This document shows positions 21,113-28,997 of a DNA stretch of 32,227 bases, piece by piece. Below the pieces are notes generated by a model. The model made no database searches and was not told where the DNA came from. It saw only the letters and a program-made list of their open reading frames with translations. The position numbers and the translations under genes are program-made. The stretch's first letter is position 1, and every line of letters begins with the position of its first letter. Origin of the DNA: Candidatus Micrarchaeaceae archaeon (GTDB lineage: Archaea; Micrarchaeota; Micrarchaeia; Micrarchaeales; Micrarchaeaceae); contig DAIDAE010000010.1 of assembly GCA_027310755.1 (NCBI GenBank), positions 1 to 32,227 of the forward strand, read 5' to 3'.

Positions 21113-23422
21113 ATGGTGGATATGCAGCAACAAGATATCACAATAAGCAGATTCCTTCTTGACGTAATACCAATAGCCGCGAGCTCCATAAGCGAAAGCG
21201 ACATGATTTCAAATTTTACGAAGGCGGTATCCTCCTCCTTTGGCATAGAGAGCGTGAAACTCGGCGACCTGAAGAGCGTCCCAGATTCCAATGCGCTGTA
21301 CGGCTACATAAATAATACCAAAAAGACGTACATAGACAACCAGCTCAGCGAATATTCCGCGTTTCCGGAGCTCATAAATTTCAAAAACAATGGCTTCAGG
21401 AGCTGTGCAGTCATGCCGCTGATAGCAGACGGGAAAGTGGTGTCTGTGCTTGAGATGCTCTCCAAGACGGAGAGCAAGTTCGGCGACGATCTTATAAAAA
21501 ACATAACCCTCGGCGCATCCTTCATAGGCTTTGTGCTGATGTACAAGGGGGAGGTTGGGAGGAGCATAAAACTTGCCACATATTTTGACGCGGCTTTCAA
21601 CAGCCAGAACCCGCAGCTGATAATCTCAGAATCCGGATCGATAATAAAATCCAACAAGGCCGCCGTAAAACAGTTTGAGATGGCGGTGCCGGAGAAAAGG
21701 GACTCGACCGAGTTACTGGGACTTAGCTTTCAGAGGCTGGTAGACCTTTCGCGCGGCGCTTCGATGACGCTGGTGCCAAAAGGAGGTGGCGCGCGTGTCT
21801 TTCAAGTGGTTGTTAACAAGATAAATGACAGGCTTGTGCATCTTGCGGCGAACGACATCACCGACGCATTCATCTACACCACAATAAATGGCATGATACA
21901 GAGGAATAATTCCATCTGCGTCGTGATAACAGACTCCGACTTCAGGATATCCAATGTCTCGTCAAACGCGGAGTATGTCTTTGGATATCCAAAATCCGTA
22001 TTGGCGAACGGCAGCTTCACCGACATGCTAAGCAAGGCGGAGAGAAACCCGCTTGACGACTCCTTCAGGAAGTCCCTTGCAAAGGAATCCGACATCGCAT
22101 CCGGCTCCCTCACCTTTGAACTCAGCAATATCGGCAAGTCCTACATGCATTACACGGCGAAGAGGTTCTTTGACGGCTATCTATTTTTGTTGATGCGCGC
22201 CGACGCAGAGAAATACATCGAGAACATGCGTAACGACCTAAAGGCGTTCATGGAGAGCAGCAGCGACATAGTGCTCGGGATAGACAACCTCGGCTACATA
22301 AGGGACTGCAATTTGCCGGCAGAGACAGTGCTTGGCTTCAAGAAGGAGGACATGCTGGGCAAGGACATCAAATCCCTGTACAAGGACCAGGGCGCCCTAG
22401 ATAAGGATATAAATTATGCAAGGAACGTCGGTAGGGTCGACAACATAATGGTTGACATAATAGGGAAGAACGACGAAATAATCCCAGCGATCCATTTCAT
22501 AAGACCGCTGCATTCGGTCTCGCAAGAGAACGAGGTGGAGTACCTTATCATCCTCAAGGAGCTAAAGTCAAAAAGGGCGCTGGAGGAACAGAGGAACGAT
22601 AACAGGGACCTTTCAAGGCAACTCGACAGCATGAAGAAGGAGGGCAACCTGAAATCACAATTCATTTACAACATCTCGCACGAGCTGAAGTCCCCGCTGA
22701 CAAGCATAAAGGGATACTCCAAGCTCCTTTACGACGGCGAGTTCGGCCCGCTCAACGACGAGCAAAAGGAATACATAAAGACAACGCTCGATGAGGCCGA
22801 CAGGCTTATGCTCATAATCCAGCAGGTCCTCGACGCGGCGAAGCTCGAAGCCGAGAAGATAAAGCTCGACCTCAGGGACGTGGACCTCAAGACGCTGGGG
22901 AACAACGCTAGCATAAAGGCGCTTGAGGAATCCGCAAGGAACAAGGGACTGTACTTCAAGTGGGAGGTTGCGTGGAATGCCCCAGAAAAGATAATCGCGG
23001 ATCCCAACAGGCTGATACAGGTATTTGTGAATCTGATAGGTAATGCGATAAAGTTCACAAGCGCGGGAGGCATAACCGTGAAGATAGAGCCACGTACAAA
23101 AGGGACAATATTGTGCAGCGTGATTGACACCGGAATAGGCATGAAGGACGAGGACAGGAACAAGCTCAAGCGCCGGGGAAAATTCTATGAAATCAAGAAG
23201 GACAGCGCCAACAATCTTGTGCAGCAGCCCGGGGCTGGGACCGGCCTGGGACTTGCGATAACAAAAGACCTTGTCAAGCTGCATGGGGGGAAGCTGGACA
23301 TTACCTCGGCGCCAGGCAAGGGCAGCACTTTCTTCTTTGTGCTTCCGATAAATCCGAGGAAAAGGAGAGACAGGAGTCCGGAGAGTCAGGGAAACAGCTG
23401 GCAAACACCACAAAATCATTGA
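21113..23422 (+). CDS. Soluble multi-PAS sensor histidine kinase
   Basis: This 769-residue kinase has no membrane helix, so it senses a cytosolic signal. A GAF-like domain occupies about residues 10-150. It is followed by PAS-like units near 155-260, 265-370 and 375-500 (the last with VLGIDNLGYIRDCNLPAETV) and a short coiled linker. The HisKA site is NISHELKSPLTSIKGY with phospho-acceptor His523. The ATPase domain has the N box NLIGNAIKFT (Asn644), G1 as DTGIGM (Asp672) and G2 as GTGLGLAI before KLHGG, so the catalytic core is intact. The ATG at 21113 could be replaced by ATG 21122. The likely partner regulator is encoded at 25549. The stop codon directly abuts the stop of the convergent LamG-pilin gene. 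Confidence 0.93.
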   Translation: MVDMQQQDITISRFLLDVIPIAASSISESDMISNFTKAVSSSFGIESVKLGDLKSVPDSNALYGYINNTKKTYIDNQLSEYSAFPELINFKNNGFRSCAVMPLIADGKVVSVLEMLSKTESKFGDDLIKNITLGASFIGFVLMYKGEVGRSIKLATYFDAAFNSQNPQLIISESGSIIKSNKAAVKQFEMAVPEKRDSTELLGLSFQRLVDLSRGASMTLVPKGGGARVFQVVVNKINDRLVHLAANDITDAFIYTTINGMIQRNNSICVVITDSDFRISNVSSNAEYVFGYPKSVLANGSFTDMLSKAERNPLDDSFRKSLAKESDIASGSLTFELSNIGKSYMHYTAKRFFDGYLFLLMRADAEKYIENMRNDLKAFMESSSDIVLGIDNLGYIRDCNLPAETVLGFKKEDMLGKDIKSLYKDQGALDKDINYARNVGRVDNIMVDIIGKNDEIIPAIHFIRPLHSVSQENEVEYLIILKELKSKRALEEQRNDNRDLSRQLDSMKKEGNLKSQFIYNISHELKSPLTSIKGYSKLLYDGEFGPLNDEQKEYIKTTLDEADRLMLIIQQVLDAAKLEAEKIKLDLRDVDLKTLGNNASIKALEESARNKGLYFKWEVAWNAPEKIIADPNRLIQVFVNLIGNAIKFTSAGGITVKIEPRTKGTILCSVIDTGIGMKDEDRNKLKRRGKFYEIKKDSANNLVQQPGAGTGLGLAITKDLVKLHGGKLDITSAPGKGSTFFFVLPINPRKRRDRSPESQGNSWQTPQNH

Positions 23423-24316
23423 TCATGGGGCGGTATATCCGCTTGTCCAGGAACTGCTGAATATTATGTTTGTGGCTTGTCCATTGGCATTGTTACCTGA
23501 ATAATCTTTAGTATCTCCATTTAGGGGCCACCATCCAACCAGGTTCTGTGGCTTGATGGGCGCGCCACCTATACCCTCCATATAGAGAGCATTTACTTCG
23601 GCAGATGAAAGCGAGGTGTTGTAGACCTGGAAATTCGAGATATATCCGGTTATGGTATTTGCATAATCGTCCCAGCCGCCTATGGTTAGGTTCTGGGTAG
23701 CCTGCCGCATACCGTTATTGGTTTGTGTGTTTGCCTGACCATCTATATAGAACGTTACAGTATCCGAGGCATTGTTATATACCGTGGCAACGAATTCCCA
23801 TGTGTTTTCAACTGAGGATATCGATCCTGCAAGATCATTGTAGCATTTGTGCAAAAATGGATTGTTCCAGTTGTCTATCAGGAGGTTGAATGCTCCGCAT
23901 ATGTCTAAATTGCCGCTGCCGCTAATCGGCTGTGCAAAAATCGTTCCGCCCCAAATATTCGGGCCAGTACCATGCGGAACCGTGGTTAGGTCAATCCATA
24001 CGGTTATGCTTCTGCTTGCAGCAGGTGCGGTTGGGAGGTATTGATCGCCAGAGATCAGAACGTATGAAGGTGGTGCCCCGAGACTGGCAACGTATTCCGG
24101 CTCCTGCCCTTGGCATTCCCCTGCAAGCGACACTGTTTGTGTTATTCCTGTTCCTGCTTTAACAACCTGACAATTTCCCGCCTGTGCCTTCGGCGTTCCT
24201 ATCCCGCTGAATACGCCTAATTGGAAAAGAGCACCAAGTACCACTGCAATAATGAGTATCGCCCAGCCGTATGTCATAAGGTATTCCATCGCAGACTGGG
24301 ACTTTTTGTGCACCAT
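23423..24316 (-). CDS. Pilin-like surface protein with LamG-type domain (paralog)
   Basis: A 297-residue exported protein built like the one at 5812-6750. The class III signal KKS then QSAMEYL (Glu at +5) is followed by a hydrophobic helix with YGWAILIIAVVLGALFQLG. A cysteine-containing spacer leads to a LamG/concanavalin-like domain of about 200 residues (ITVWIDLTT, WEFVATVYNN, GYISNFQVYN). It ends in the shared signature YMEGIGGAP, GWWPLNG, DYSGN. Carbohydrate or glycoprotein binding at the cell surface is the family-based expectation. There is no glycine-rich linker here. TTTTTAAAAA-like sequence about 20 nt before the ATG is the probable promoter. It is convergent with the histidine kinase, with zero spacing. 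Confidence 0.85.
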   Translation of the reverse strand: MVHKKSQSAMEYLMTYGWAILIIAVVLGALFQLGVFSGIGTPKAQAGNCQVVKAGTGITQTVSLAGECQGQEPEYVASLGAPPSYVLISGDQYLPTAPAASRSITVWIDLTTVPHGTGPNIWGGTIFAQPISGSGNLDICGAFNLLIDNWNNPFLHKCYNDLAGSISSVENTWEFVATVYNNASDTVTFYIDGQANTQTNNGMRQATQNLTIGGWDDYANTITGYISNFQVYNTSLSSAEVNALYMEGIGGAPIKPQNLVGWWPLNGDTKDYSGNNANGQATNIIFSSSWTSGYTAP

Positions 24317-24390: not shown

Positions 24391-25401
24391 CTATGCGACC
24401 AATATGCCGCACGCCCCCAGCCCCTTCGCGGTCACATAGCCGCTGCTCAGCTTCGCATCCGTCTGGCCGTAGAAGGCACCTTCAAATGTTACATTGGCTA
24501 TGAGGCCAGAGGTCACATTGATCGTTATTACCATTGCCGCCCCGGTTGTCAGGGTGCTGTGCGAAAACGTCTTGTACGTGGCATAGTATGTGTGCACGCT
24601 GCTGTTTGTTATGTTGATCGCCGCGGAGTACGGCGTTACCATGCTGACGTTGGAATAAGCGGAAGGTCCCGAGGGCGCGAAATGGTTGTAGGCCGTGAAC
24701 GTCAGGTTGTAGCTCGGCGCAGTGCAGTTTACCGTGTCCTTGTATAGCACGGTATAGTTATTCATCAGGCTGAAATATTCCGAGGATGCGAGTATGCTCT
24801 GGGCTTTCAAGTAACCTCCAGCCTGTCCAGGTATCGATGTCGTGGCTGAGGTCGTTATCGTAGATGTGACCCCTATCGAAGTTGTTGGCACCGTTGTCAC
24901 GTTTACATTGCCGCCAACGGCCACCGGGGTCAGGGTCGAACCTGCAACCGTTATCCTTGAAGCCGTGGGGTTAAGCACTATGGTGCTGGGTATGGGTGTT
25001 ATCTGCACATCCGCGCTCTTGGATCCCGTGGAGAGGAGCTTGAGCTGCATGTTGGCGTATCTTCCCATCGTGCCGTTAAAGTTTGTCGTGTTATCCATGT
25101 ACATTGTCACGTAAAAGGTCGGGTTCTGGAACGCCGGGACCCTTGTAATCGAGAGCTGGGCGGACGACGGGGTCGAATCCACTACGCTCGCTGCATATTC
25201 ACTTCCGGAAAGCGTGAACAGCGCCGTGGCGTTTGTGAAAGTCACGTTTGTCGACGAGTTCACCTGGATGATAGAAAACGCTCCCACAGCCCACGTGGCT
25301 ATGGCGTACAGGAAGAGGAGAACCACTACTGCCTCCACCAGCCTCAAGGTAAGCTTGTTCCCGTGTTTTCCTGGCCTCCTCGGCCTGAAATCTGCCATCA
25401 A
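24391..25401 (-). CDS. Large membrane-anchored, Asn/Ser/Thr-rich surface protein
   Basis: This 336-residue protein has a basic cytosolic head (RPRRPGKHGNK), a single hydrophobic helix (about 20-42) and a long outside part dense in Asn-X-Ser/Thr sequons, so it is probably heavily glycosylated if N-glycosylation operates. A Thr/Ser-rich stretch near residues 165-195 (TTVPTTSIGVTSTITTS) looks like a stalk. Two cysteines late in the sequence could form a disulfide. No domain is recognised; it could be an S-layer-like or adhesin component. It is divergent from the response regulator gene (148 nt between starts) and lies upstream of the LamG-pilin gene on the same strand, about 75 nt away. Confidence 0.65.
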   Translation of the reverse strand: MMADFRPRRPGKHGNKLTLRLVEAVVVLLFLYAIATWAVGAFSIIQVNSSTNVTFTNATALFTLSGSEYAASVVDSTPSSAQLSITRVPAFQNPTFYVTMYMDNTTNFNGTMGRYANMQLKLLSTGSKSADVQITPIPSTIVLNPTASRITVAGSTLTPVAVGGNVNVTTVPTTSIGVTSTITTSATTSIPGQAGGYLKAQSILASSEYFSLMNNYTVLYKDTVNCTAPSYNLTFTAYNHFAPSGPSAYSNVSMVTPYSAAINITNSSVHTYYATYKTFSHSTLTTGAAMVITINVTSGLIANVTFEGAFYGQTDAKLSSGYVTAKGLGACGILVA

Positions 25402-25548
25402 ATCAGTAGCTCTGTACGATTAGCTATGCGAAAAGAAGGCTTATAAAGATTTATCTACCCTCCGGGATTCATCTTGTGTAACTTCTCCTTACTGGAAAAA
25501 TAAGAAAGGGATATTAATACTTTATGCGATTCAGTACCGGTGACGACT

Positions 25549-26751
25549 ATGGCGGACGACAGCGCCGGTTTACAGAACGACCTTATGGAAATGATGAATG
25601 ACAGGCAGCAGATTTCTTACGAGGAGCTTAGCGAGTTGGCCATGAGCCGCGGCATACCGGAGGACAGGCTGAAAGGCGCGCTTTCCGATCTCGAGATGAA
25701 TAAGGCGATAGCTTCGAGAAGCAGCGGCGGGATTCTCACCTATTACATACTGCAGGGTCCCGGCGAGATAAGGAAGGTACTCATTGTGGAGGACGACAAG
25801 AACATAAACAGGTTGATGAGCCTCTCGATAGGGAAGGGATTTGAGATAGGGCAGATATATGACGGAGGCGAGGCGATAGCCGCGGTGCGGGAAAAGAAAC
25901 CGGATCTCGTGATATTGGACCTGATGCTTCCGCACAAGGACGGGCTGGACATCTGCAATACTATAAAGGCCGATCCGCAGCTCAGCGGCACGATAGTCAT
26001 ACTGGTGAGCGCCATGGATCCGACGAGCAACAGGTTCAAGGGCATAAAATACGGCGCTGACTATTATATAAAGAAACCTTTTGACCCGAGCGAACTGAAG
26101 AACCTCGTAACGCTTTTCCTCAGGAAGAAGGGCAAGCGCTTCGATGCGCTGGTCGATCTGCCAGACGAGGAGAGGATATCAGCGCAGATAGAAAGCTCGA
26201 TAAAGCAGGGCGAGAGCTATAAGATAGGCACGCTCAGGATAGACAATCTTGGCACTTACGCAAGAAAATTCGGGGAGCGCGCCGCGGTTGTCCTGCTCAG
26301 GCTGATATCCCAGTTATTGCAGGACGACATAAAATCAAACAACGCATTCGTCGGGTTCCTGAACAGCGACGAATTCGTGGTTGCTGGAACCAAGGAGAAC
26401 GTGGACGCGCTGGTAAAGAAGGTCCAGGACGAATTCGCAGCTGTGCTCCATTTCATCCTGCAGGATGCGGGATATAAGCAGCTCGATGTGGACATGGAGT
26501 CGCTCTTTGAATCCGAGGAGGTCCCGAAACTTTCCCTTGTGTTCAAGGAGTCTGACAAGCAGATACTGAAGCAGAGAAGGAACCAGGTCCTGAAGAGCAA
26601 GGGCGCGGCAAACAACAATGAGATAGGCGCCTACACGTACGACGAGCTCCTGGAGATATTCGGCAAGAAAGACCTTGATATTAAGATAACCAGGGACTCC
26701 ACCGGCGTGCGCGTCAACGTCGGCAAGGGAGGGGACGAAGAGAAAGACTAA
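25549..26751 (+). CDS. Response regulator with winged helix and degenerate GGDEF-like domain
   Basis: This 400-residue protein has three parts. Residues 1-70 are a small winged-helix-like domain (QISYEELSELAMSRGIPEDR). Residues 75-190 are a receiver with the acidic pair in VLIVEDDKN, phospho-acceptor Asp124 in LVILDLMLP, Ser in LVSAMD and Lys in YIKKPFDP, all intact. Residues about 211-305 resemble a GGDEF fold: LRIDNLGTYARKFGERAAVV, then GFLNSDEFVVAGT, where the signature reads NSDEF (272-276). The two glycines that bind GTP are replaced, so cyclase activity is unlikely and a binding or interaction role is more plausible. GGTGA 5 nt before ATG 25549 is a good ribosome binding site; GTG 25540 is also in frame. 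It probably pairs with the kinase at 21113-23422. Confidence 0.88.
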   Translation: MADDSAGLQNDLMEMMNDRQQISYEELSELAMSRGIPEDRLKGALSDLEMNKAIASRSSGGILTYYILQGPGEIRKVLIVEDDKNINRLMSLSIGKGFEIGQIYDGGEAIAAVREKKPDLVILDLMLPHKDGLDICNTIKADPQLSGTIVILVSAMDPTSNRFKGIKYGADYYIKKPFDPSELKNLVTLFLRKKGKRFDALVDLPDEERISAQIESSIKQGESYKIGTLRIDNLGTYARKFGERAAVVLLRLISQLLQDDIKSNNAFVGFLNSDEFVVAGTKENVDALVKKVQDEFAAVLHFILQDAGYKQLDVDMESLFESEEVPKLSLVFKESDKQILKQRRNQVLKSKGAANNNEIGAYTYDELLEIFGKKDLDIKITRDSTGVRVNVGKGGDEEKD

Positions 26752-26786: not shown

Positions 26787-27338
26787 ATGCTGACTGGCAA
26801 AAAACACAAGCAGCAGGCTGCTGTCGACTTCCTAGTATCATACGGCGTGGCCATACTCCTCGTCGCTATATCTATTTATGTAGTGGGCAGACTGGGCATC
26901 TTCGGCAACAGCCTCGCCCAGCCCACCTGCTCCACCGCGGCATCGTTCTCCTGCGGCGCGTTTGTATTCAATGCCAACGGCCTCCTCACCCTCACCTTGA
27001 CCCAGGCGCTGAGCAGCTCCGTCAATGTCATAGGCATGGCGTGCTCGAGCGGGATAAACGTGACTGGCGATGCCCCTGCATACGGCAATGTCAGGATATT
27101 GAGTTATTCCTCGGCGCCATCCTTCTATCCAAATGCCCAGCTCCAGAACGGGTTGGTGATGTATGGTGACCAATCCGAGACCCTGCAGATAAACTGCTAT
27201 GGCTCAGGTGGAATATCTGCCCAAAATCTCGGGCAGCCGTACTCGGGCTATGTATGGCTGAACTACACCAGTACTGGCCTGCCCGCAACATACTACACTA
27301 TAGAAAGGGCGGTGCAGTTCACGGCAAGGTCCTCCTGA
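26787..27338 (+). CDS. Pilin-like exported protein
   Basis: This 183-residue protein begins with a class III-like signal: basic GKKHKQ, then QAAVDFLVSYG, with Asp rather than Glu at +5, and a hydrophobic helix (VAILLVAISIYVVGRLGIFG). The mature part is beta-rich, with four cysteines (PTCSTAASFSC, MACSSG, INCYG) and few sequons. No LamG domain is present. It starts 35 nt after the response regulator and is probably on the same transcript, followed 42 nt later by a secreted protein gene. This places a pilin-like subunit directly under the regulator's promoter. Whether processing by a PibD-type peptidase tolerates Asp at +5 is unknown. Confidence 0.75.
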   Translation: MLTGKKHKQQAAVDFLVSYGVAILLVAISIYVVGRLGIFGNSLAQPTCSTAASFSCGAFVFNANGLLTLTLTQALSSSVNVIGMACSSGINVTGDAPAYGNVRILSYSSAPSFYPNAQLQNGLVMYGDQSETLQINCYGSGGISAQNLGQPYSGYVWLNYTSTGLPATYYTIERAVQFTARSS

Positions 27339-27380
27339 CCGGCCACACTGATAGATAATGTATAAAAAACCTAATTGCCT

Positions 27381-28232
27381 ATGGTAATCGTGATCTGCCT
27401 GAGGAATACCCTTCTGTTCATGGCTGCGTTTGCGCTCATGGTCTCTACAGCAGCGGCAAGCTCGGTTACCATACTTGAGCCTTTCAATGCAACGGTGACC
27501 CAGGGCGGCAGCGTTCTTTTGGGAAAAGTCGGACCAGGCCAGACATTTTACATCACCATATCCGCAACCACCACAAATGCCACTGGCGTAACCTTCTCAA
27601 GAGGATGGAACAAGCTTGTGGCCACTGGCGTGCCCCAGGGGTGGATAGTCGAGAACTCATCGCTTAACGGTGCGGACCTTTCCGTGAAGATAGACCCTTC
27701 CCCAAATGCGCAGAACGGCACCTATACCTTCAATCTCACTGCAATAAACCTGGGCAATTACTCTCACCTCGGAGCGGTGCAGTTCCAGGCGCTGATAAAT
27801 GTGACTCCCGATGTGTTCAACCTCCAGATAAGCCCCACCAACATAAGCACCGGCCCAGGCCAGCCGGCAAGCATATACGTCACGATAAACAACACCGGGG
27901 TCTCCGACAGCCCGTTCATGATAGCGATGGCCGGCCTCCCGGCGTGGAACGCCACCAGGCCGGTAATAGCGCTGCACCACACCACCGAGACTTTTGCATA
28001 CCCTGTGTATGAGAATGAGCCAGGTACGTACAGGGCGCAGCTGAATGTAAGCTCCGGATCCAGCCCGCTGGTGTACAAGAGGAGCAATGTCACCTTGGTT
28101 ATCCAGGAGTCCCTGATCAACGATTACAGGGCGGTCGGCCAGGGGGCGGTGGCATTTCCCATAATATATCAGCCGGTCTACGCTGTAATGTACTTGATAA
28201 GCAAGCTTCTTGCGCTGGCCGGCATACGCTAA
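27381..28232 (+). CDS. Secreted beta-sandwich protein with C-terminal membrane anchor
   Basis: This protein (about 283 residues) has a Sec-type signal peptide (TLLFMAAFALMVSTAAASS), two Ig-like or CARDB/NEW3-like beta-sandwich units (about 30-135 and 140-245; for example PASIYVTINNTGVSDSPFMI in the second) and a hydrophobic C-terminal segment (AVMYLISKLLALAGI). Many Asn-X-Ser/Thr sites are present. Such modules occur in archaeal surface proteins and bind or space other domains. The start is uncertain: TATA GTATAAAAA (about 27359-27367) gives a leaderless start near GTG 27390, while ATG 27381 and TTG 27375 are also in frame. It lies 42 nt after the pilin-like gene. Confidence 0.7.
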   Translation: MVIVICLRNTLLFMAAFALMVSTAAASSVTILEPFNATVTQGGSVLLGKVGPGQTFYITISATTTNATGVTFSRGWNKLVATGVPQGWIVENSSLNGADLSVKIDPSPNAQNGTYTFNLTAINLGNYSHLGAVQFQALINVTPDVFNLQISPTNISTGPGQPASIYVTINNTGVSDSPFMIAMAGLPAWNATRPVIALHHTTETFAYPVYENEPGTYRAQLNVSSGSSPLVYKRSNVTLVIQESLINDYRAVGQGAVAFPIIYQPVYAVMYLISKLLALAGIR

Positions 28233-28301: not shown

Positions 28302-28997
28302 ATGAAGAAAGCGGATGGCCAAAAAAACAGCAAGGGCACAAAGAGGACGGTCTATCCGGTGCGGCTCAAGCGCCTGGATGACCTTGCGCTGAACGCAACC
28401 TCCTTCGACGGGGTCAGGCCCATATACGCATTCAGGGAGGGAGACCACTACACCCTGTTCTCCCAGAGCATCAAGATCGGCGACCCGCAGATGACCCTCT
28501 ATGTAAATGAGAGCAAAATAGGCAAATACATAATCTTCAGGCCGCATACGATGACGGAGAAAGGCACATGCGGGTTTACCGATACGTCTGTGATTAGGAA
28601 TCCGCAACCGAACACGCATCTTTTCCCTATAATAGAGTTTGAAAAGGCCCCGCATGAAGTGAAGCAAGGGAAGTTGAAAATAAACCAAGTTGGGATAGTC
28701 GACTTCGACAAGCTGCTCAAGGGCGTAATGATGCAGCACGCCGAAGGCGGCGTGGGGAAAGTCTTTGCCTTCAAATACGGTGGCGACGCATACATCTCAA
28801 CTTTCCACATCCTCGATTCCGACGATATAAAGACATTCAGCTATGCAAAGGTGAAGCTCGAGAAGGACTATAGCTTTTTCAGGTATAACTACACGGAGGA
28901 CAGGATAGAGCCCACCGACACCTTTGGCGAATCTTCTTATTTGTATGTGAGAATAATATATCTCGCAGAGGCATTTCCTTTTTTCAAGCCCGAATAG
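28302..28997 (+). CDS. Unknown soluble protein whose end overlaps tRNA-Asn
   Basis: I do not recognise this 231-residue protein. It opens with a Lys-rich tail (MKKADGQKNSKGTKR) and then shows a mixed alpha/beta globular sequence with many aromatic residues (for example DYSFFRYNYTED and SYLYVRIIYLAEAFPFF). There is no signal peptide or membrane segment, in contrast to its upstream neighbours. The last codons, CCC GAA TAG, lie within the first ten bases of tRNA-Asn, so the two genes overlap by 10 nt on the same strand. A TATA-like AATATATC (about 28953-28960) inside the coding sequence is placed to start the tRNA. A role cannot be assigned. Confidence 0.7.
   Translation: MKKADGQKNSKGTKRTVYPVRLKRLDDLALNATSFDGVRPIYAFREGDHYTLFSQSIKIGDPQMTLYVNESKIGKYIIFRPHTMTEKGTCGFTDTSVIRNPQPNTHLFPIIEFEKAPHEVKQGKLKINQVGIVDFDKLLKGVMMQHAEGGVGKVFAFKYGGDAYISTFHILDSDDIKTFSYAKVKLEKDYSFFRYNYTEDRIEPTDTFGESSYLYVRIIYLAEAFPFFKPE

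Follow-up and report, generated by a model that had tools for sequence, protein, structure and literature searches.

The window analysed here, a stretch of 32,227 nucleotides from a Candidatus Micrarchaeaceae archaeon (GCA_027310755.1, contig DAIDAE010000010.1), contains a response regulator gene and, 2.1 kb upstream of it, the gene for a histidine kinase (Table 1). Both belong to a recurrent gene order of gltX, a TPR protein gene, fibrillarin, kinase, p3, regulator, a pilin-like gene, p5 and p6, and gltX and fibrillarin of the window match archaeal-type families. A LamG-like secreted protein is encoded at positions 23423-24316 on the minus strand; its N-terminus, QSAMEYLMTYGWAILII, is one that we take to resemble signals of class III (type IV pilin-like). 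LamG-type relatives occur at varying places in other loci.

Table 1. Features of the regulator locus, in window coordinates. Regulator residues follow the 403-aa numbering.
Feature	Position	Strand	Remarks
Partner histidine kinase, 769 aa	21113..23422	+	GAF-PAS-PAS-HisKA-HATPase_c; GAF and first PAS below cut-off
Kinase phospho-acceptor His523	22679-22681	+	H-box His conserved at least 95% in 63-row kinase alignment
p3, Ser/Thr-rich single-TM protein	24391..25401	-	Divergent, between kinase and regulator
21-bp palindrome, predicted regulator operator	25504..25524		15.3 bits
GGTGA, likely Shine-Dalgarno for ATG 25549	25539..25543	+	
Response regulator ORF	25549..26751	+	400 aa from ATG; wHTH, receiver, degenerate GGDEF, C-terminal helix and hairpin
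Predicted winged helix, residues 11-72	25570..25755	+	Model secondary structure, PDB profile match
Receiver domain, residues 78-196	25771..26127	+	Response_reg; VIA Z 21.7 to VicR receiver 8fk2
Phospho-acceptor Asp127 (Asp124 from ATG)	25918..25920	+	Conserved 100/100
Degenerate GGDEF fold, residues 202-340	26143..26559	+	
NSDEF where GG[DE]EF is expected	26362..26376	+	
C-terminal helix and beta-hairpin, residues 362-397	26623..26730	+	Conserved; no family assigned
Pilin-like single-TM protein	26787..27338	+	Directly downstream of regulator; possible operon
p5, secreted or membrane protein	27375..28232	+	Conserved downstream neighbour
p6, no predicted membrane helix or family	28302..28997	+	Conserved downstream neighbour

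Regulator residues are numbered throughout from GTG 25540, from which the same frame is open to its end (25540-26751, plus strand, 403 aa); numbers counted from the ATG are lower by 3. GTG 25540 was ruled out as a start codon because in some relatives (L040 and L041 among those listed) its spacing to the ATG cannot be divided by three, and because GGTGA stands ahead of the ATG. The initial annotation had begun the gene at ATG 25549, and this is the better choice for the same reasons, with GGTGA resembling a ribosome-binding site and the GTG out of frame in some relatives. GGTGA or GGCGA precedes the regulator ATG in most relatives listed.

Pfam, the family alignment and structure models all bear out the layout first proposed for the protein, namely a winged helix, an intact receiver with Asp124 and a degenerate GGDEF domain. 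Judged on sequence, the identity of the receiver is certain: Response_reg (Pfam) matches residues 80-190 with an E-value of 5.5e-24, and the response-regulator residue set (acidic pair, phospho-acceptor Asp, Thr/Ser, Lys) is present in full. In the family alignment (n=100), D85, D127, S157 and K179 are each found in 100 of 100 sequences and D86 in 99; D127 is the former Asp124. An N-terminal winged helix is predicted, for the window protein mainly on structural grounds and with weak support from the family. The secondary structure of the model in this region is H6-22, H27-36, H41-53, E57-62 and E65-70, and profile A3 matches the HTH regulator Rv0081 (E 8.7e-4) and CodY in the PDB. MarR_2 is above cut-off in one of eight sister proteins, and a Pfam scan of the window protein's own winged helix gave no match.

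The kinase has no predicted membrane helix, its hydrophobic segments all staying below the membrane threshold. Response_reg at E<=0.001 is found exactly once per genome in 31 of 31 genomes, and is the regulator gene wherever coordinates were compared. HisKA above cut-off is likewise found once per genome (31/31), in a count confined to the HisKA family proper. Of 108 loci, which were not deduplicated and some of which have short flanks, 83 contain the kinase in the flanking sequence that was fetched. Since it lies beside the regulator, in divergent orientation, in all eight sister-family loci, the pair predates the split between the order and its sister families; the two sister kinases inspected share the GAF-PAS-HisKA-HATPase_c arrangement. 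We infer from single-copy pairing alone that kinase and regulator are cognate partners in phosphotransfer, and together they are probably the only classical two-component system in these tiny archaea. The possibility of an orphan response regulator was dropped, given a HisKA kinase in 31/31 genomes. The initial annotation mentions neither this kinase nor the palindrome described below.

The pseudo-GGDEF domain

Matched against PF00990, the window protein gave 18.6 bits over residues 202-340 (E 0.0017), below the cut-off of 23.8, and another scan gave 20.6 bits, likewise below 23.8. This regulator's GGDEF is above the Pfam cut-off in 3 of 31 genomes. When 60 family members were scanned singly, 49 matched PF00990 at E<=1, the best of them at 2.3e-05; any other Pfam family was found in at most 3 of those 60. 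Among the sister proteins, GGDEF was seen at E<=0.1 in 1 of 8 (Pfam). In a PDB search with a family profile covering residues 200-403, the first two ranks went to GGDEF structures, with weak E-values (6eib 0.0051, DosC 0.1).

The 50 matches listed for a full-length model against the PDB were all to receivers, and the GGDEF domain was therefore modelled separately. The domain-only AlphaFold2 model, built with 60 sequences, reached a pLDDT of 79.6 and a pTM of 0.76 and has the topology beta-alpha-alpha-beta-beta-alpha-beta-alpha. Its best Foldseek match in the PDB is 4zvf, the GGDEF domain of DosC (E 2.5e-4, probability 1.00), and VIA-align gave a Z-score of 10.4 over 136 residues at 4.0 Å. The resemblance to GGDEF is weak in the window protein alone, yet sequences and models taken together indicate that it is not chance. 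On fold and on sequence similarity the domain belongs with the GGDEF fold, with the Pfam cut-off missed by the window protein. The initial annotation had named a profile search and structure prediction as checks, and a non-GGDEF fold as the adverse outcome; the search recovered GGDEF in the family members and in the PDB profile, and prediction returned the GGDEF fold.

Catalytic and inhibitory-site residues have been lost in most of the 100 relatives aligned. NSDEF stands in place of GGDEF, as first read from the sequence, and the motif columns of the alignment (n=100) hold N in 82, S in 59, D in 70 or E in 16, E in 40 or D in 38, and F in 100. The metal-binding and guanine-contact positions were assigned by residue roles that we take over from PleD. 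The column of the first metal-binding Asp holds R in 44 or K in 40 (n=100), that of the guanine-contact Asn holds A in 86 (n=100), and that of the guanine-contact Asp holds G/A. The RxxD inhibitory site is common among diguanylate cyclases, if not universal; in the alignment of 100 no RxxD I-site lies ahead of the motif, where positions 266-269 are variable and read S-N-N-A in the window protein. The domain thus does not carry the features of a diguanylate cyclase (motif, metal Asp, guanine-contact Asn/Asp and RxxD). The motif of eight relatives from the sister families is nearer to canonical, of GxGEF type (e.g. GEGEF, GGGEF, GNGEF, GDGEF).

Within the GGDEF fold R254, S257, Q258, Q261, G272, F273 and F279 are invariant, and in the C-terminal helix and hairpin Y367, E369, I383 and R385 are invariant in A1. 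Long conservation of the fold after loss of catalysis suggests that it is retained for a non-catalytic job. Residue losses and fold matches together support the original picture of a non-catalytic GGDEF domain in one protein with a receiver and a domain predicted to bind DNA. PleD (REC-REC-GGDEF, PDB 2v0n) likewise combines receiver and GGDEF, and the domain matches its fold with a Z-score of 9.0. PleD is a diguanylate cyclase with an A-site and an I-site, both of which are lost in the regulator, and to our knowledge it has no DNA-binding domain. The GGDEF domain of FimX (PDB 3hva) is also of non-canonical GGDEF fold (Z 9.4) and is used non-catalytically. In contrast to FimX, the regulator has no EAL or PilZ partner above cut-off in the genomes searched and its domain is fused to a DNA-binding response regulator.

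A palindrome upstream of the regulator

A motif search at width 22 in the upstream regions of 60 non-redundant loci returned one common motif, g.AAAG.ATAATATtCTTTttg, which scored 391 as against 80-88 in four shuffled sets. The matrix correlates with its own reverse complement at 0.94, and its columns reach up to 1.6 bits compared with 0-0.2 across the 40 columns upstream. Before the regulator, the symmetric 21-mer scores at least 12 bits in 62 of 78 loci and at least 16 bits in 41 of 78. Only two other sites in the 1.09 Mb of locus sequence fetched reach 16 bits or more. At a threshold of at least 14 bits the palindrome was found before none of the HK (0/53), pil (0/53), TPR (0/28) or gltX (0/20) genes. 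Before p3 it is present at 12 bits or more in 39 of 55 cases, which are not independent, the intergenic region being shared with the regulator. Plain counts of inverted and direct repeats upstream gave little signal, and the palindrome was not found in the eight sister loci, where the best score was 9.5 bits.

The site in the A_DKE regulator promoter scores 21.4 bits. In a 400-kb sample of genome G042 the best site has 16.5 bits, and sites of at least 12 bits number 25 compared with 6-14 in shuffles. Its frequency before the regulator and its rarity elsewhere make it likely that the palindrome serves as an autoregulatory operator. Two palindrome-like sites in G042, L191:15567 (16.2 bits) and L186:18643 (14.3 bits), precede surface-protein-like genes and are weak candidates for further targets.

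Distribution and alternative readings

Of 100 related Micrarchaeota genomes, 95 carry the regulator; among those of better quality the figure is 47 of 49. At E<=1e-25 the family profile matches 158 of the 301 genomes of the phylum, corresponding to the order and sister families of the class. The named matches listed are Micrarchaeota genomes, a few of them labelled Marsarchaeota, and include the complete chromosome of Ca. Micrarchaeum sp. A_DKE (NZ_CP060530.1, L058). Bacterial contamination of archaeal bins, or recent transfer from bacteria, might account for the receiver and kinase scoring highest against bacterial families and for the presence of GGDEF, chiefly a bacterial domain. We regard this as extremely improbable in view of the spread over 95 of 100 genomes, the gene order fixed with archaeal-type gltX and fibrillarin, the regulator on a complete chromosome and the relatives in sister families. 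Contamination in particular is ruled out by the spread, the archaeal neighbours and the complete chromosome, which for us establish the regulator as genuine. The domains may be of bacterial origin, acquired in ancient times.

GGDEF domains had initially been called rare in archaea, a statement that fails for this phylum: other GGDEF proteins, all above cut-off, are found at E<=1e-6 in 106 of 301 Micrarchaeota genomes. Many of these separate proteins (L148-L154, L157-L178) are about 200-300 aa long, and most have an intact GG[DE]EF together with RxxD; in 19 of 20 such loci examined, a GGDEF-type motif was found by pattern, in most cases preceded by RxxD. Two separate GGDEF genes lie near archaeal-type genes, one close to RLI/ABCE1 on a contig of 274 kb and one, on a contig of 50 kb, near ribosomal protein S15, which carries the S13/S15 N-terminal domain. 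Aligned by hhalign with one canonical Micrarchaeota GGDEF protein, the domain profile gave a weak match (probability 7.8, E 0.0044), which leaves a local origin of the domain as no more than a possibility. In the genus of the window the regulator is present in all 14 genomes, and a further GGDEF protein at E<=1e-6 in none of them; the regulator therefore does not depend on having a canonical GGDEF enzyme beside it in the cell. Above cut-off, EAL was found in none of 31 genomes, PilZ in none of 60, and a c-di-AMP synthase domain in one of 31; no DAC match at E<=0.01 was found in 29 of 31. On the EAL and PilZ results, c-di-GMP control by way of known parts was dropped. One genome (G018:C6) has two c-di-AMP synthase (DAC) matches (L155, L156); the ORFs that hold them are 214 and 222 aa long.

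Three further readings concern the domain and the palindrome. It is very unlikely that the domain has some other palm-like fold, for instance as a relative of class III cyclases, and does not descend from GGDEF. The adenylyl cyclase Rv1900c is one of the 50 Foldseek matches listed, and parts of the C-terminal half are less well modelled; the other 49, which contain GGDEF, agree with the Pfam matches of the members and with the PDB profile. The pseudo-GGDEF domain might instead sense a ligand, a nucleotide or cyclic dinucleotide held in a remodelled site, in which case the regulator would integrate a kinase signal with a small molecule. The retained fold with its seven invariant residues would fit such a role, as would the canonical-looking GGDEF proteins, which were counted in 53 genomes belonging to the order, out of the 301 searched. 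We nevertheless consider it unlikely: the RxxD I-site is missing, the metal Asp has become Arg/Lys and the Asn Ala, the 14 genomes of the genus keep the regulator with no other GGDEF protein at the above threshold, and EAL, PilZ and c-di-AMP synthase are as scarce as described.

Somewhat unlikely, in our judgement, is a palindrome that works as an unusually conserved, perhaps bidirectional, core promoter, with the regulator acting elsewhere or through protein contacts, which are thought to be the mode of most archaeal response regulators. The centre of the palindrome lies about 25 bp ahead of GGTGA, the position of a TATA box, its left arm and core are BRE-TATA-like, and p3 is divergent. However, p3 has a TATA-like site of its own at about 25434, the symmetric right arm CTTT is unexpected for a TATA box, and the element is absent at 14 bits or more before HK, pil, TPR and gltX.

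Proposed mechanism and known relatives

The domain order, the fold, the residue losses, the single-copy pairing with a kinase and the conserved palindrome are established by computation. The reading we prefer on this basis, at a probability of about 0.7, is that of a genuine archaeal regulator: a kinase-phosphorylated, self-regulating transcription factor with the pseudo-GGDEF domain as a structural or interaction module. A soluble GAF/PAS kinase would sense an intracellular cue and phosphorylate Asp127. Phosphorylation would alter receiver pairing and, through it, the grip of two N-terminal winged helices on the palindrome. With its place at the TATA position in the promoter of the regulator gene itself, the palindrome would close an autoregulatory loop, whichever its direction, and nearby surface-protein genes may also be under control of the regulator. 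The pseudo-GGDEF domain could act as a dimer stabiliser or docking face, the likely face being the helix with the invariant R254, S257, Q258 and Q261. A broader proposal, to which we give slightly less than even odds, is that the Micrarchaeales rely on one ancient self-regulating two-component switch, with a GGDEF fold repurposed for dimerisation or docking and a 20-21 bp palindromic operator of its own.

If this is true, a three-layer regulator (wHTH, receiver and pseudo-enzyme) would be a core gene of host-dependent archaea. The regulator also shows an enzyme fold, GGDEF, that was retained at core-gene level after its catalysis was lost. In the same phylum canonical-looking GGDEF proteins are common, yet EAL and PilZ do not exceed the cut-off in the 31 and 60 genomes, respectively. 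The host dependence of DPANN archaea is poorly understood, and a lineage with a single kinase, a single regulator and a single predicted operator offers about the simplest DPANN signalling circuit to test.

A search of the literature for Micrarchaeota with GGDEF, or Micrarchaeum with response regulator, found only Galperin et al. 2018 (PMC5847659). The relevant passages of that census describe, for two genomes of Ca. Micrarchaeum acidiphilum, a WspR-like REC whose GGDEF is inactivated, leave undecided whether it is genuine or contamination, and list the lone complete Micrarchaeota genome with one kinase and one HTH-containing regulator. Going by this description, the Ca. Micrarchaeum acidiphilum protein very probably belongs to the same family as the regulator, and the doubt of 2018 can be answered in favour of a genuine protein. 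Like WspR-like REC-GGDEF proteins, the regulator has a receiver followed by a GGDEF fold; unlike them, it has lost the catalytic motif and has an added N-terminal wHTH and a conserved C-terminal hairpin. The same passages give neither a partner nor a DNA-site analysis for the Ca. Micrarchaeum REC-GGDEF. LtrR of Methanococcoides burtonii (PMC4823666), as outlined there, resembles the regulator in domain order, with an N-terminal HTH before the receiver, and in having a kinase gene beside it. In that outline LtrR consists of HTH and receiver only, whereas the regulator adds the GGDEF-like domain and C-terminal hairpin. LtrK, the kinase of LtrR, has an extracellular CHASE domain whereas the kinase here is a soluble GAF/PAS protein. 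The order wHTH-receiver-GGDEF, put forward at the outset as unusual, stands as an order; its novelty is reduced, with wHTH-REC known in archaea from LtrR-like proteins (PMC5847659, PMC4823666) and REC with inactivated GGDEF in print since 2018.

The pertinent sections of a 2021 paper (PMC8646023) give over 300 archaeal GGDEF matches by BLAST, many of them from Asgard and DPANN lineages, and report that c-di-GMP was absent from two model archaea. The term 'two-component' is absent from the excerpted text of a 2022 co-culture paper (PMC8975820). Proteins of this kind are thus already on record. What is added here, and did not turn up in the literature searches, comprises the partner statistics, the residue losses, the motifs of the sister families and the palindrome.

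Two homologues of the regulator (G031:C6 and G053:C8) contain one in-frame TGA each, and G031 has an intact second copy on another contig.
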